From a virus, in IMG/VR virus record IMGVR_UViG_3300025769_000380, positions 1-35,436 of that record: a stretch of 35,436 nt of DNA; one strand, written 5' to 3'. Shown piece after piece: positions 4,658-26,049 of this stretch. Below the pieces are notes generated by a model. It saw only the letters and a list, made by a program, of their open reading frames with translations. It was not told where the DNA came from and searched no databases. Made by a program: the position numbers and the translations under genes. Each line of letters starts with the position of its first letter. Position 1 is the stretch's first letter.

Positions 4658-5072
4658 TTAATATAATATATTCGTTATCGCTAGAAGAACCAGTAAAAGG
4701 CTCGTATTCACCTGCATCAATAGAATGAATAGCAGTATTGTTATAAGGCACATCATTGTCTTCTAATACTAAAAGTCTATCTCTATAAAAAAGCTTTCCA
4801 GTAGTATTGTTTTTTATCTCCATAAAGTAATTAAAGTTCTTTCTAAACGTATTTACTGTTGCTGTTACTTGCAGAGCTAAATAGTTAGGATATTTATTAC
4901 TTACTAAATTTAAAAAACTAGCACCATTATTGGTTTCTTCTTCCACAAACTTAACAGTCAGAACATTAGCATCAAGAGTAATAGTTCCATCCTCTTGAGT
5001 AGTATATTCTACAACACCATCTCTAGGTATTATGTTAAATGTCTGTGTCTCTGCTGCATTAATAACTATCAT
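4650..5072 (-). CDS. Hypothetical beta-rich protein upstream of portal
   Basis: A 140-residue protein with alternating hydrophobic/polar strands (TITLDANVLTVKFVEE; LALQVTATVNTF; YFMEIKNNTTGKLFYRDRLLV), suggesting an Ig-like beta-sandwich. I do not recognise a named family. Similar-looking short beta proteins sit near the portal or capsid in Bacteroidota phages and could be decoration or head-closure proteins. It is the first gene after the terminator at 5110-5139, and its ATG lies 4 nt after the CGTTATCA element of a putative late promoter. It overlaps the portal start by 8 nt, so the two are probably translationally coupled. Confidence 0.6.
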   Translation of the reverse strand: MIVINAAETQTFNIIPRDGVVEYTTQEDGTITLDANVLTVKFVEEETNNGASFLNLVSNKYPNYLALQVTATVNTFRKNFNYFMEIKNNTTGKLFYRDRLLVLEDNDVPYNNTAIHSIDAGEYEPFTGSSSDNEYIILND

Positions 5073-5076
5073 AATA

Positions 5077-5103
5077 TGATAACGTAAAAACTATTTTTTG
5101 TTT
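5077..5103 (-). promoter_or_regulatory. Putative phage late promoter, site 1
   Basis: On the minus strand AAACA (5103-5099), a 14-nt AT-rich spacer, then CGTTATCA (5084-5077), with the ATG of the next gene 4 nt downstream. The same element with the same spacing recurs at 7259, 8760 and 21271, and with a 15-nt spacer at 16304. It begins 7 bp after a strong intrinsic terminator, so a new start is needed here. It resembles ECF-type promoters (AAAC, ~15-16 nt, CGTT). Confidence 0.6.
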
Positions 5104-5109
5104 TATAAT

Positions 5110-7258: not shown

Positions 7259-7285
7259 TGATAACGATTAATAAAATATCTGTTT
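7259..7285 (-). promoter_or_regulatory. Putative phage late promoter, site 2
   Basis: Minus strand: AAACA (7285-7281), N14, CGTTATCA (7266-7259). Here the -35-like part reads TGAAACA, the closest of the set to the classical ECF -35. The scaffold ATG is 16 nt downstream rather than 4, so this transcript would have a short leader. Confidence 0.6.
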
Positions 7286-7296
7286 CATTTTCAAGG

Positions 7297-8759: not shown

Positions 8760-8786
8760 TGATAACGATTTTTATATTATTTGTTT
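8760..8786 (-). promoter_or_regulatory. Putative phage late promoter, site 3
   Basis: Minus strand: AAACA (8786-8782), N14, CGTTATCA (8767-8760), then 4 nt to the ATG of the protease gene. It overlaps the end of the tape-measure transcript, so it would boost expression of the head genes. Confidence 0.6.
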
Positions 8787-8790
8787 TATA

Positions 8791-15505: not shown

Positions 15506-15772
15506 TTATTTTTTATATGCCTTCTTTATTAAAGCATTCTCTATTCTTGTCTTATCCTTTATATATTCTAAGTACATTAGACAGGTGTGTACTGGAAGCT
15601 TTGTAGCTTTGTCAATCTTTGCTGCATCTTCTTGAGCGATTGTAAATATTGATTGATACCAACCCCACTTTTTTCCAAAGTTTGCTTGAGCTGTGGTGGA
15701 ATCGCCTTCCCTTTCAGCTCCTGCTGTAAATAATCCAGCGTATAGCTTGGTAATTTGCTCCCTAAACGATAA
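15506..15772 (-). CDS. Tail assembly chaperone T-like extension, made by -1 frameshift
   Basis: After the T9 run (15779-15771) in the gene at 15577-16299, the -1 frame stays open for 88 codons to TAA at 15506. It encodes a protein-like sequence: QITKLYAGLFTAGAEREGDS, FGKKWGWYQSIFTIAQEDAA, THKL-type segment ATKLPVHTCLMYLEYIKDK. The FGKKWGWYQS(I/L) segment is one I recognise from tail chaperone extensions of Bacteroidota phages. It has no good start of its own: the only ATG is 23 codons from the end. It would be expressed as a 264-residue fusion (176 + 88), as for lambda gpG-T. It is positioned upstream of the tape measure as expected. Confidence 0.7.
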   Translation of the reverse strand, partial: LSFREQITKLYAGLFTAGAEREGDSTTAQANFGKKWGWYQSIFTIAQEDAAKIDKATKLPVHTCLMYLEYIKDKTRIENALIKKAYKK

Positions 15773-16299
15773 AAAAAAACCATCGCCCCTATCGCTACAT
15801 TAACTGGCATATCTAACATTACATCAGAATACTTATGACTGCCTTCATAATCCATCACCCTATAGAACTCATTCTTCTTAAAGATGACTGGTCTAAACAA
15901 TACAGCCATTGCTTTGTGCATCTTATCCCAATCTGAGATATACCCATCTAAATCAATGAACTCACCAAATGTCATCTCGTCTAGCTTTGGTATAAAACCA
16001 AACTCAACAACCGTCTCTTCTCCATACTCATCTGTGGCTGACATACTAAATCTAGGTACTAAAGGTGTCTCTTCCTTAAAACACTTGTTTATTACATCAA
16101 TAGCGAAATCAAAGTTGTTTAAGGGAATCTTAAATGTATCTTCAATCTCTAATCCACAGAATATCTGCAGCATCTTTGTCTTTATATATACCTCATCTTC
16201 CTTATCCCATTTATCTAGTATCTTTAGATACTTCTGATACTGTCTAAGGGTTATTCCTGCCAATGCTTGAGGTACAGACAGTTTATATTCCTTTATCAT
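15577..16299 (-). CDS. Tail assembly chaperone (gpG-like), zero-frame product
   Basis: A 240-residue protein, MIKEYKLSVPQALAGITLRQ... with conserved PKLDEMTFGEFIDLDGYISD, AMAVLFRPVIFKKNEFYRV and a C-terminal amphipathic part (SGVGINQYLQSLKKM). The start at 16299 rather than further upstream is chosen because the ATG lies 4 nt after a CGTTATCA promoter element and the residues before it look non-coding. Codons 174-177 are GTT TTT TTT TAT on a T9 run, a slippery site for -1 frameshifting into the extension at 15506-15772. The chaperone call rests on this frameshift architecture and position. It would coat the tape measure during tail assembly and be absent from the virion. Confidence 0.68.
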   Translation of the reverse strand: MIKEYKLSVPQALAGITLRQYQKYLKILDKWDKEDEVYIKTKMLQIFCGLEIEDTFKIPLNNFDFAIDVINKCFKEETPLVPRFSMSATDEYGEETVVEFGFIPKLDEMTFGEFIDLDGYISDWDKMHKAMAVLFRPVIFKKNEFYRVMDYEGSHKYSDVMLDMPVNVAIGAMVFFYRLGSKLPSYTLDYLQQELKGKAIPPQLKQTLEKSGVGINQYLQSLKKMQQRLTKLQSFQYTPV

Positions 16300-16303
16300 A
16301 CTA

Positions 16304-16331
16304 TGATAACGAAAATCAACACTTTCTGTTT
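16304..16331 (-). promoter_or_regulatory. Putative phage late promoter, site 4 (tail operon)
   Basis: Minus strand: AAACA (16331-16327), N15, CGTTATCA (16311-16304), then 4 nt to the chaperone ATG at 16299. It is back-to-back with the plus-strand copy at 16361-16388: the two AAACA elements are about 30 bp apart, forming a divergent promoter pair. Confidence 0.6.
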
Positions 16332-16360
16332 TCTTGTTAATAAGTTGTTTATGGAGGAAT

Positions 16361-16388
16361 AAAACAAAAATCAAAAATATCGTTATCT
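16361..16388 (+). promoter_or_regulatory. Putative phage late promoter, site 5, plus strand (divergent)
   Basis: Plus strand: AAAACA (16361-16366), N14 (16367-16380), CGTTATCT (16381-16388). Sequence and spacing match the minus-strand sites, yet it points right, away from all genes, into the 16.39-16.96 kb gene-poor region. Expected start near 16391-16395. Confidence 0.55.
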
Positions 16389-16475
16389 TTATATAAGTAG
16401 TTGCAAATCTACATAAGTTGCCACACTTCAATACCCTAATAAATACGGATGATTGTTGGACCGTGTACTCTAAAT

Positions 16476-16546
16476 CTCCTTGTGAATGGCAGTACTAAAT
16501 CCTTTGTTGTTTTCGTAGTCGCCCTAGTACTATTCCATACAACGAG
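16476..16546 (+). repeat. Long bulged inverted repeat / RNA hairpin
   Basis: The central arms AGTACTA (16491-16497) and TAGTACT (16525-16531) are extended outward by GAAT/ATTC, TTGT/ACAA and CTC/GAG. The outward extension is interrupted by GGC bulging on the 5' side, CAT on the 3' side, and one C-C mismatch. The loop is 27 nt. Regular 3-nt bulges on alternating sides look like an evolved RNA helix more than a protein-binding palindrome. Confidence 0.6.
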
Positions 16547-16928
16547 TAAACAGCTAACCAAATATCTAGCAAATATTATTTAAAATAACATTTATTATAG
16601 GTGGGCGAATAATACCTTCCCAATACACTTCCAATTATATATATATTTTTAGAATATGAGTTTTAGATAAATTCGTTTTGGATGAAATCATTAGAATGGG
16701 TAACTCCCACCGTAGCACATTCAATTTACGTTAAATGTATGTTATAAACGTCTAATCTAAGACTATTTAGAGACGATTTAAGACACTATCTTTAATTATA
16801 TGTGTGTGGATACTTGATGAGGTGTAAAGTATGCTTAAATGAGCTTAAAATTGTTTGTTATTTCACAGCTCTATATCTCATTTGTAAATCAATAACTTAC
16901 AAAATATATGCATATATATAATAGATAT

Positions 16929-16960
16929 AAAAAAAGCCCTTAAACATAGGTTTAAAGGCT
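16929..16960 (-). terminator. Intrinsic terminator of the small-gene operon, possibly bidirectional
   Basis: An 11-bp stem (one G-U on the minus strand) AGCCTTTAAAC/GTTTAAGGGCT with a 4-nt loop and T7 on the minus strand (16935-16929). It lies 29 nt after the stop of the last small gene. On the plus strand the same hairpin is followed by CTTTC, a weaker but possible stop for the candidate RNA. Confidence 0.8.
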
Positions 16961-16988
16961 CTTTCGGACTAACTAAATATAAAACAAA

Positions 16989-19375: not shown

Positions 19376-19512
19376 TAAATATATAATTTTTTTTTACACC
19401 TATTATAAGCGTGTGCGCATGTATACAAAAATAATTTGACACTACAAAAATAAAATTGATTTTGTTACTGGCTTTTTTTCTGGCTAAAATTGTGTAAATC
19501 TTATCACACACT

Positions 19513-19531
19513 ATTTAGAATGATTCTAAAT
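19513..19531. repeat. Perfect 19-bp palindrome
   Basis: ATTTAGAAT-G-ATTCTAAAT: 9-bp arms around a single central G. It is 18 bp from the iteron array, separated by a G-run (GTGGGGGGAT). The symmetric odd-length form suits a dimeric DNA-binding protein or a cruciform; there is no T-tract, so it is not a terminator. Confidence 0.75.
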
Positions 19532-19549
19532 AAGGAAAGTGGGGGGATA

Positions 19550-19658
19550 ATGTTAAACAGCCCCTCATGTTAAACAGCCCCTCATGTTAAACAGCCCTCA
19601 TGTTAAACACCTCCATGTTAAACAATCGACCCTTCATGTTAAAGGTTCATGTTAAACA
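19550..19658. repeat. Seven-copy iteron array (ATGTTAAACA), candidate origin or pac site
   Basis: Copies of ATGTTAAAC(A) start at 19550, 19567, 19584, 19600, 19615, 19636 and 19649. The sixth reads ATGTTAAAGG. The first two units are identical 17-mers (ATGTTAAACAGCCCCTC) and spacing then drifts to 16, 15, 21 and 13. The array begins 2 bp after the terminase stop. Iterons next to a palindrome and AT-rich DNA are a typical phage origin layout, and the position beside the terminase genes also fits a packaging-initiation site. No CRISPR features: units are too short and directly abutting. Confidence 0.7.
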
Positions 19659-19660
19659 AA

Positions 19661-20875
19661 TTATCGAATAACATATTTTCCAGAATTTACTCCTTGAACT
19701 AAATATTGTAAGGAATATCTGATTGCATCTACAAAGTGATTGTACTTGTCTATTGGTTTCTGACCTCTCTCGTGCCAAACATAATTGTTAAACTCTCTTA
19801 TTATATTGTGTGAGTTTCTCTCTACTATTATCTCATAGTCTTGCATCAAAGCAATACCTGATAAGATACTACCCTTCTTCTTTATGGTTGGTCTTATGTT
19901 TAATCCTGTATTTCTTAATTCTTTTATCAGTCTAGGTTCAGAACTATCACAGATTATCAAATCTGCACCACATTCCTTCCTATTCATAAATGCTATATCT
20001 GACGTAGAAAGTGCTGTTTTACCGAATATCTCTTTTACATAGACCTTACGCACATCTCTATCAACAGAGACCTTTACAAGCGTTGTCATGTCCATAGAGA
20101 ACCCAAAATCCTGCCCATAGCAAGTTAATTCTGTTTGTGCAAACTCTCCAAGCTTCCAGTTTCTAATTATTGTTCCTTCAGCTTTCTCCATCCAACCTCC
20201 TAAAATAATATGCTCAAACTTAGAAGGAGTTCTACGTTTCATATCCATTATCTGACTAATAAATGATTCGGATAAGTTCTTCTTGTTATCTTCATAGGTA
20301 GTGTGAATGTATGTAACATCATTTGTAACACCATTGTAACCTCCTTTAATATTCTTATACAAAAAGAATCTCTGATATATCCAATGCTCTTTTGTAGCTG
20401 GGTTTAATATTAAAATACATCTGTTTTGTTTACCTTGTGTACGAATAGAGAAGTCAATCTTGTTAAACACATCCTCTTCTAAAAGCTCTTCGGCTTCATC
20501 TACAACGAATGTAGTTACACCATTTAAAGATTTAAGAGCTGCAGTTTGATTACCTGATGAGGTTCTTATACCTTTAAACATTATAGAACTGTTTGTCTTT
20601 AAGTTTATTATCTCATCCTTAGTAATTCTAAAATCACTATGAACATCCATCAAGTCTATCTTCTCAATGAACTCAGGTATAATAGAAGTGTTGGCTGATG
20701 TTAAAGTATATCTAGTAAATAGAATCTTATGTCCATGCTCATAGGTTAGGTTCAATAGAAACAGAGCAGCACCAAAACTCTTACCACTACCTCTACCTCC
20801 TGTAATTATAAAGTATCTACTATCAGATTGAAACAAAGGTATATACTTTGTATGTAGATTTATGTTACTGTTCAT
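19661..20875 (-). CDS. terL: Terminase large subunit
   Basis: A 404-residue packaging motor. The ATPase has Walker A GGRGSGKS (26-33), Walker B with catalytic Glu FVVDEAEE (123-130) and a coupling region LNPATKEHW. The nuclease domain has DFGFS (Asp256), IICDSSEP (Asp310) and the C-terminal NHFVDAIRYS (Asp383), the RNase H-like metal triad that cuts concatemers. Length and order fit the PBSX/Terminase_3 family. It overlaps TerS by 11 nt. The C-terminus ends 2 bp from the iteron array. Packaging genes are separated from the portal gene by about 15 kb, which is unusual. Confidence 0.95.
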   Translation of the reverse strand: MNSNINLHTKYIPLFQSDSRYFIITGGRGSGKSFGAALFLLNLTYEHGHKILFTRYTLTSANTSIIPEFIEKIDLMDVHSDFRITKDEIINLKTNSSIMFKGIRTSSGNQTAALKSLNGVTTFVVDEAEELLEEDVFNKIDFSIRTQGKQNRCILILNPATKEHWIYQRFFLYKNIKGGYNGVTNDVTYIHTTYEDNKKNLSESFISQIMDMKRRTPSKFEHIILGGWMEKAEGTIIRNWKLGEFAQTELTCYGQDFGFSMDMTTLVKVSVDRDVRKVYVKEIFGKTALSTSDIAFMNRKECGADLIICDSSEPRLIKELRNTGLNIRPTIKKKGSILSGIALMQDYEIIVERNSHNIIREFNNYVWHERGQKPIDKYNHFVDAIRYSLQYLVQGVNSGKYVIR

Positions 20876-21270: not shown

Positions 21271-21297
21271 TGATAACGATTATTTTGTATTATGTTT
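21271..21297 (-). promoter_or_regulatory. Putative phage late promoter, site 6 (terminase)
   Basis: Minus strand: AAACA (21297-21293), N14, CGTTATCA (21278-21271), then 4 nt to the TerS ATG. It partly overlaps the 3' end of the preceding gene (stop at 21280), so it is an internal late promoter at the end of the middle operon. Confidence 0.6.
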
Positions 21298-21498
21298 TTT
21301 GTAAAGCTTTAAGTAAACATCTGCAATGCCTTCTTGTACAGTCTTCTTGTTATACTTTTCTTGTATGATTGCTCGCTTGTTACCTTTCTCTACAACTATA
21401 TTATAAGTACTATTATCTTTTGTTACTGGATATATAATAAAGTCATTAGCAATACACCATTGAACTGCATCTGGGTTTAATACTTTTATCTTACGCAT
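21280..21498 (-). CDS. Hypothetical protein, 72 aa
   Basis: MRKIKVLNPDAVQWCIANDF... with YPVTKDNSTYNIVVEKGNKR and a basic C-terminal helix. I recognise similar short proteins before TerS in flavobacterial phages but know no function. It has a compact alpha/beta pattern. It overlaps the DnaA-C-like gene by 8 nt and its last codons form part of the terminase promoter. Confidence 0.6.
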   Translation of the reverse strand: MRKIKVLNPDAVQWCIANDFIIYPVTKDNSTYNIVVEKGNKRAIIQEKYNKKTVQEGIADVYLKLYKKHNTK

Positions 21499-25485: not shown

Positions 25486-26049
25486 TTATATTTTATCGTA
25501 ATCTTTATTGTAAAAATCCTCTACATCCTCACTAAATTTCTCTTGTATAATCTCTCTGTGGTTTTTTATTGTATTGTAGATACTGGACCTGCCTATGCCT
25601 AATTCCTTTACTAGCTTATCTAATGATAAACCTGTAGTGAAATAAGCAATACATAAATTCTTATTATAGAAATCCCAAGTGTTTATTTCATCTAGTATTC
25701 TATTATAAATCTTTGTAAATGCTTCTTGCTCTTCCATATCCATACCAGCATAATAAGCTGGAGTCTCAGTTAGAGAATCTACTTCATCATTATCCATTAT
25801 CTCAAAGAACGTATACTTGCCTCTTGTCCTCTTGTAATCTATATACATAGACTTCAATGTTAAATAGATATAAAATCTATTCGCAGACTCGTCATCATAC
25901 ATCACATTCTTTCCTTCCTTAACCAATCTGTCTATTCGCAGATACATCTGCTGGACAATATCTTCTGCCATACTAGGGTTACACCCCATATTAAGAACCA
26001 TCTTCAACCATAAAGTGTGATTCCTAGCCACCTTTTCTAATACATTCAT
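25486..26049 (-). CDS. ECF-like RNA polymerase sigma factor
   Basis: A 187-residue protein. The N-terminal part (HTLWLKMVLNMGCNPSMAED-IVQQMYLRI, ~11-40) matches sigma-70 region 2.1-2.2 of ECF factors. YLTLKSMYIDYKRTRGKYTF resembles regions 2.3-2.4, and the C-terminus holds a helix-turn-helix like region 4 (LSLDKLVKELGIGRSSIYNT-IKNHREII, ~138-165). It probably redirects host RNA polymerase to phage promoters. The six AAACA-N14/15-CGTTATC elements in this window, which have ECF-type geometry, are the obvious candidate targets. It overlaps the RusA-like gene by 4 nt within the middle operon, as suits an activator of late genes. Confidence 0.7.
   Translation of the reverse strand: MNVLEKVARNHTLWLKMVLNMGCNPSMAEDIVQQMYLRIDRLVKEGKNVMYDDESANRFYIYLTLKSMYIDYKRTRGKYTFFEIMDNDEVDSLTETPAYYAGMDMEEQEAFTKIYNRILDEINTWDFYNKNLCIAYFTTGLSLDKLVKELGIGRSSIYNTIKNHREIIQEKFSEDVEDFYNKDYDKI

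Follow-up and report, generated by a model that had tools for sequence, protein, structure and literature searches.

Does the longest gene-poor stretch of a viral genome, entered by a late promoter that reads against all of its genes, specify a structured RNA and, if so, which strand folds? We asked this of IMG/VR record IMGVR_UViG_3300025769_000380, a virus DNA of 35.4 kb (35,436 nt) that was analysed as a whole and is called the window here. As the first-pass annotation had described, every large supported ORF in the ORF list lies on the minus strand, and positions 16300–16988 form the longest span of the window without one. Portal, terminase, tail, holin and exonuclease genes are all on the minus strand, as is the gene bordering the gap (15577–16299; phrog_32199, a family of unknown function), which served as our anchor. 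A search of annotated phages by DNA similarity gave no match. By portal and anchor protein, the closest isolates are the Nonlabens phages P12024L/S (Inhavirus), at 29–35% identity. These share related portal and anchor proteins with the window and encode one protein that contains sigma-70 region 2, whereas their anchor gene directly follows the terminase gene, with no RNA locus in between. Beside the window's terminase gene, a TGTTTAACATGAGGGG-like unit is repeated about seven times in an array on the minus strand (19501–19680) that resembles a regulator binding site or an origin; related TGTTTAAYATNNNGGGG units recur in relatives and in some of these lie inside the RNA gap as well.

The late element itself is well defined. 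The pattern RAAACA-N14-CGTTATC has five exact copies in the window compared with 0.00 expected in shuffled sequences. Four are on the minus strand (5078–5104, 7260–7286, 8761–8787 and 21272–21298), and the fifth (16361–16387, AAAACA-N14-CGTTATC) is the sole exact plus-strand copy, facing right into the gap as originally noted. It lies back to back with a sixth, minus-strand copy with a spacer of 15 nt (AAAACA-N15-CGTTATC, 16305–16332), the putative late promoter of the anchor gene, whose ATG lies 5 bases past CGTTATC. Of the five minus-strand sites, four (5104, 8787, 16332 and 21298) have exactly 5 bases between CGTTATC and ATG, a spacing that suggests leaderless late messages. Applied to the plus-strand copy (CGTTATC-N5-A), the same spacing predicts a transcription start (+1) near A16393.

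The orientation of the plus element is also kept in relatives: among 41 non-redundant relatives it is exact in 39, and the remaining two (L067 and L080) differ by one mismatch. Furthermore, in all 39 exact relatives the motif class of the plus element is that of the minus-strand element of the anchor gene, with AAAACA/CGTTATC on both (n = 28) or AAAATG/TGTTATA on both (n = 11) and no mixed case (n = 0). The element thus combines what marks a phage late promoter, namely a bipartite motif, a fixed spacing before late genes and concerted change across relatives. This conservation, and the way its class tracks that of the anchor-gene element, is the strongest indication that the plus element is in use, and it very probably functions as a promoter. 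Related elements apparently occur on both strands, as judged by eye, in L044 and in a further clade, F (L161–L171). In L045, an inverted repeat (TATACAC...GTGTATA, ∼1400–1460) flanks the plus promoter on either side and could be an operator. A candidate sigma factor that might read the late element is encoded at 25486–26049 on the minus strand (phrog_1740, E = 1e-10); its product resembles P12024L gp35 (E = 5e-8), which carries Sigma70_r2, and its own match to Sigma70_r2 is weak (E = 0.016).

We gathered relatives of the locus through the anchor protein (60 loci), with more added by DNA patterns and then by further anchors. A 29-sequence alignment (A4) delimits a core of ∼340 bp at 16393–16732 that is conserved across five clades (A–E), while 16736–16930 is less conserved and holds, at 16736–16870, short repeats around CTTAAA. 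The strongly conserved part is therefore shorter than the ∼560 nt first proposed. Conservation of the core does not follow codons: there are stop codons in all frames, single-base indels in L002, L035 and L109, and an even spread of variable columns over the three codon positions (61/114, 64/113 and 61/113). It does follow base pairing. In the pair model, 95.4% of cells are paired compared with 33–44% when the partners are slid, changes on both sides affect 13 pairs compared with at most 2 in the slid controls, and there are 120 double-change cells compared with at most 12. Covariation thus exceeds the slid controls, as expected of a structured RNA. A phylogeny-aware test of single pairs reached E = 0.23 at best, with none below 0.05, and is underpowered because the alignment comprises only about five clades. 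When the core is folded as a whole, its energy is unremarkable on both strands, and a minus-strand z of −3.1 across the whole gap was not reproduced on the core. We conclude that 16393–16732 is a real structured-RNA locus of the phage and, with no Rfam family fitting it (see below), a new family. Of the structured non-coding RNA initially suggested, non-coding status and covarying helices hold up, whereas its length, its plus-strand terminator (see below) and its resemblance to GOLLD or ROOL do not.

The helices of the core define a compact fold; H1, H2 with its loop, H4 and the two pseudoknot helices are given here without assignment to a strand, as is the core itself. The strongest element is H2, a stem of 18 pairs (16476–16497 with 16525–16546), seven of which are changed on both sides. 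Its conserved loop (16498–16518) is A-rich on the minus strand (CGAAAAYAACAAAGG) and U-rich on the plus strand. The H2 loop also provides one half of PKa (16519–16524 with 16603–16608), a helix seen in the alignment and in L113 once the register had been corrected by hand. PKa appears as UCGCCC/GGGCGA, GCACCC/GGGUGC, GAUGCCC/GGGCAUC or CUGCCU/AGGCAG depending on the clade. Errors of register in the alignment of clades D and E compromise part of its pair counts, so that machine counting is incomplete and the helix was re-read by hand in some clades; with these variants, an H-type pseudoknot is well supported. A second pseudoknot helix, PKb (16553–16570), pairs GCUA with UAGC, or ACUA with UAGU in L067, and is missing in part of clades C and D. 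The smaller stems vary by clade as well, H4 (16429–16455) as CAAU/AUUG, UAGG/CCUA or CUAUA/UAUAG and H1 (16397–16412) as GUAG/CUAC, ACAG/CUGU or GCAG/CUGC. H1 would be the 5′-terminal stem of a plus transcript and the 3′-terminal stem of a minus transcript. Two elements pair on one strand only: helix P2 (16469–16475 with 16578–16584; A-U and G-U pairs) on the minus strand, and the alternative hairpin Hx (16456–16473; UUGGNN/NNYYAA, G-C and G-U pairs) on the plus strand. The distal edge of the core carries an invariant ACGTAA motif (16726–16731, minus strand), which is present as two tandem copies in most of the clade F relatives read.

The hairpin at the far end of the gap (16930–16965) had been taken to serve both strands. 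We find it to be an intrinsic terminator on the minus strand only, belonging to the upstream minus-strand genes: all relatives that include this region have the U-run on the minus side, and in clades C–E the tail on the plus side is not rich in U. No plus-strand intrinsic terminator or conserved plus-strand end was found after the core in the window and its relatives. The late plus transcript may therefore run on, antisense to the upstream minus-strand genes.

Which strand provides the folded product is a nearly even question on the sequence evidence. Tentatively, and at slightly less than even confidence, we favour a late structured RNA read from 16393–16732 as the plus strand. We infer that the late promoter, which is specific to the phage and probably recognized by its own sigma-like protein, would start a plus RNA close to A16393, shortly ahead of H1. 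Late in infection, transcription from it would run through the pseudoknotted core in the direction opposite to the structural operon, and the RNA would most likely work in folded form, as a ligand of a protein or of RNA polymerase or as an aid to virion production. In line with this, the only promoter with good support at the locus faces the plus direction, conservation sets in at the predicted +1, H1 begins at +3 to +5 in clades A–E, and a covarying stem of clade F (GAUAAYC/GRUUAUC) begins at about +1 or +2. Global measures do not separate the strands: consensus folding gives z values of −2.7 (minus) and −2.6 (plus), and MFE, consensus energy and column shuffles end in a tie. Clade F gives −2.75 for plus and −1.8 for minus on a segment that includes promoter bases. 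Counting against the plus reading are the lack of an intrinsic terminator after the core on that strand, the ordinary folding energies, the outcome of the single-pair test and the minus-strand features given next.

The strongest alternative is that a minus transcript, made before or at late onset, is the folded RNA. The late plus transcript would then be its full-length antisense in a sense/antisense switch, either silencing the minus RNA or blocking minus-strand read-through into the structural operon. We consider this quite plausible, if short of probable. Local stability of H2 points this way (z = −2.1 as minus, −0.5 as plus), in the same direction in all five clades, as do an invariant U.G pair within H2 that exists only as minus RNA, the confinement of P2 to that strand and the A-rich loop. 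Loops of H-type pseudoknots are usually A-rich. Judged by eye, a clade F hairpin such as UAGUUA/UGACUA can use U.G pairs as a minus RNA, and as a plus RNA it would have A.C mismatches. Single-sided changes in the strand-neutral helices favour minus by about 3 to 1, on too few changes to carry weight, and the upstream terminator would shield a minus RNA from the early genes. However, the only promoter here with good support faces the opposite way, and the 3′ end of a minus transcript lacks a terminator. A search for a minus-strand promoter for the core found no clear one: TTTG-N17-TAAATTGA is consistent with clades C and D, but its −7 half varies, and its −33 half is missing elsewhere. The candidate ACGTAAATTGA was rejected as weak, its −7 half being variable and the unit tandemly repeated in clade F. 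The fullest form of such a switch, with a pseudoknotted RNA and a full-length late antisense started by opposing promoters, one at either end of the conserved stretch, and with an unrelated RNA sequence under the same inward late promoter in the slot of relatives, is in our estimate unlikely.

Less likely again is that the conservation mainly reflects a DNA element (a replication origin, an operator array or a packaging signal), the plus promoter being a by-product of the divergent late pair. Operator-like TGTTTAAYATNNNGGGG repeats do occur inside the gap of some clade E relatives and of L044, the ACGTAA units are doubled in clade F, and the flank carries the CTTAAA-centred repeats; compensatory double changes in several helices and a long-range pseudoknot are nevertheless hard to explain in this way, and we regard it as improbable. 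A gene remnant or a source of small peptides can be dismissed almost entirely, since the short ORFs present are those of any AT-rich DNA and the core combines stops in every frame with single-base indels and a lack of codon periodicity.

The plus-strand RNA that we favour would belong to a locus present in dozens of environmental phage contigs, from viruses related to marine flavobacterium phage. The A–E sequence family was found in contigs of this phage group only; GTDB genomes scanned with one DNA pattern gave no match, and a 95-position covariance model searched against distant loci recovered only the window and L113. A weak match of this model in L176 was dropped because it lies inside an ORF. 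The locus is absent in most of the other distant relatives read, as well as in P12024L. In clade F and L044 the slot, the ACGTAA motif and the inward late-type promoter are kept with a sequence unrelated to the A–E core. Upstream of the anchor gene, L161, L164, L169 and L170 carry ACGTAAAATGAA..GAGGTAT..GGTTT..AAAATCAA in tandem, and the tandem copies of clade F adjoin a second, unrelated conserved stretch that contains the covarying GAUAAYC/GRUUAUC stem; the clade F loci searched gave no Rfam match. In L044, ∼600 nt of unrelated sequence (180–795) fill the slot and contain hairpins, for example CCTAGAAGGGAAACTCTAGG, as well as CGTTATA elements on both strands. In L114, a methyltransferase-like gene is followed by a long stretch that looks non-coding and lies ∼700 nt upstream of the anchor gene (before position 5001); it is possibly a structured RNA and has no match in Rfam.

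Searches against Rfam 15 at gathering or permissive thresholds returned chance matches only; the family is not OLE, nor is it GOLLD or ROOL. The GOLLD covariance model gave no match at gathering score in the window or its relatives, and the ROOL and phi29 pRNA models gave none in the same set. The likeness to GOLLD and ROOL put forward at the outset is thus not borne out by size, tRNA neighbourhood or family match. GOLLD is a phage-encoded structured RNA whose expression rises in lysis (PMC12286853). Its length is frequently above 800 nt and it tends to sit close to tRNA islands, whereas the core here spans ∼340 nt and a tRNA search of the window found none. ROOL, too, is larger than this core, and it assembles into an RNA cage. 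This phage RNA contains several pseudoknots and is not known to have a protein partner (PMC12286853), and differs from the core here, which has neither an Rfam match nor a tRNA island. Like the core, phi29 pRNA is a small structured phage RNA, and a packaging role of the core would be possible; unlike phi29 pRNA, the core has no Rfam match, and the terminase here belongs to the common large-terminase families (phrog_2). Phages and plasmids also have antisense control RNA pairs, in which opposite transcripts cross one structured stretch. Opposite transcripts over this locus would work in the same way, the minus transcript here being hypothetical. Large structured phage RNAs are few and mostly without known function. 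Among them, this locus is compact, and its promoter motif offers a way into late transcription of flavobacterial phages; since it combines a definable, class-tracking promoter with dozens of contigs and a slot that holds differing structured sequences, its function can be tested by comparison.
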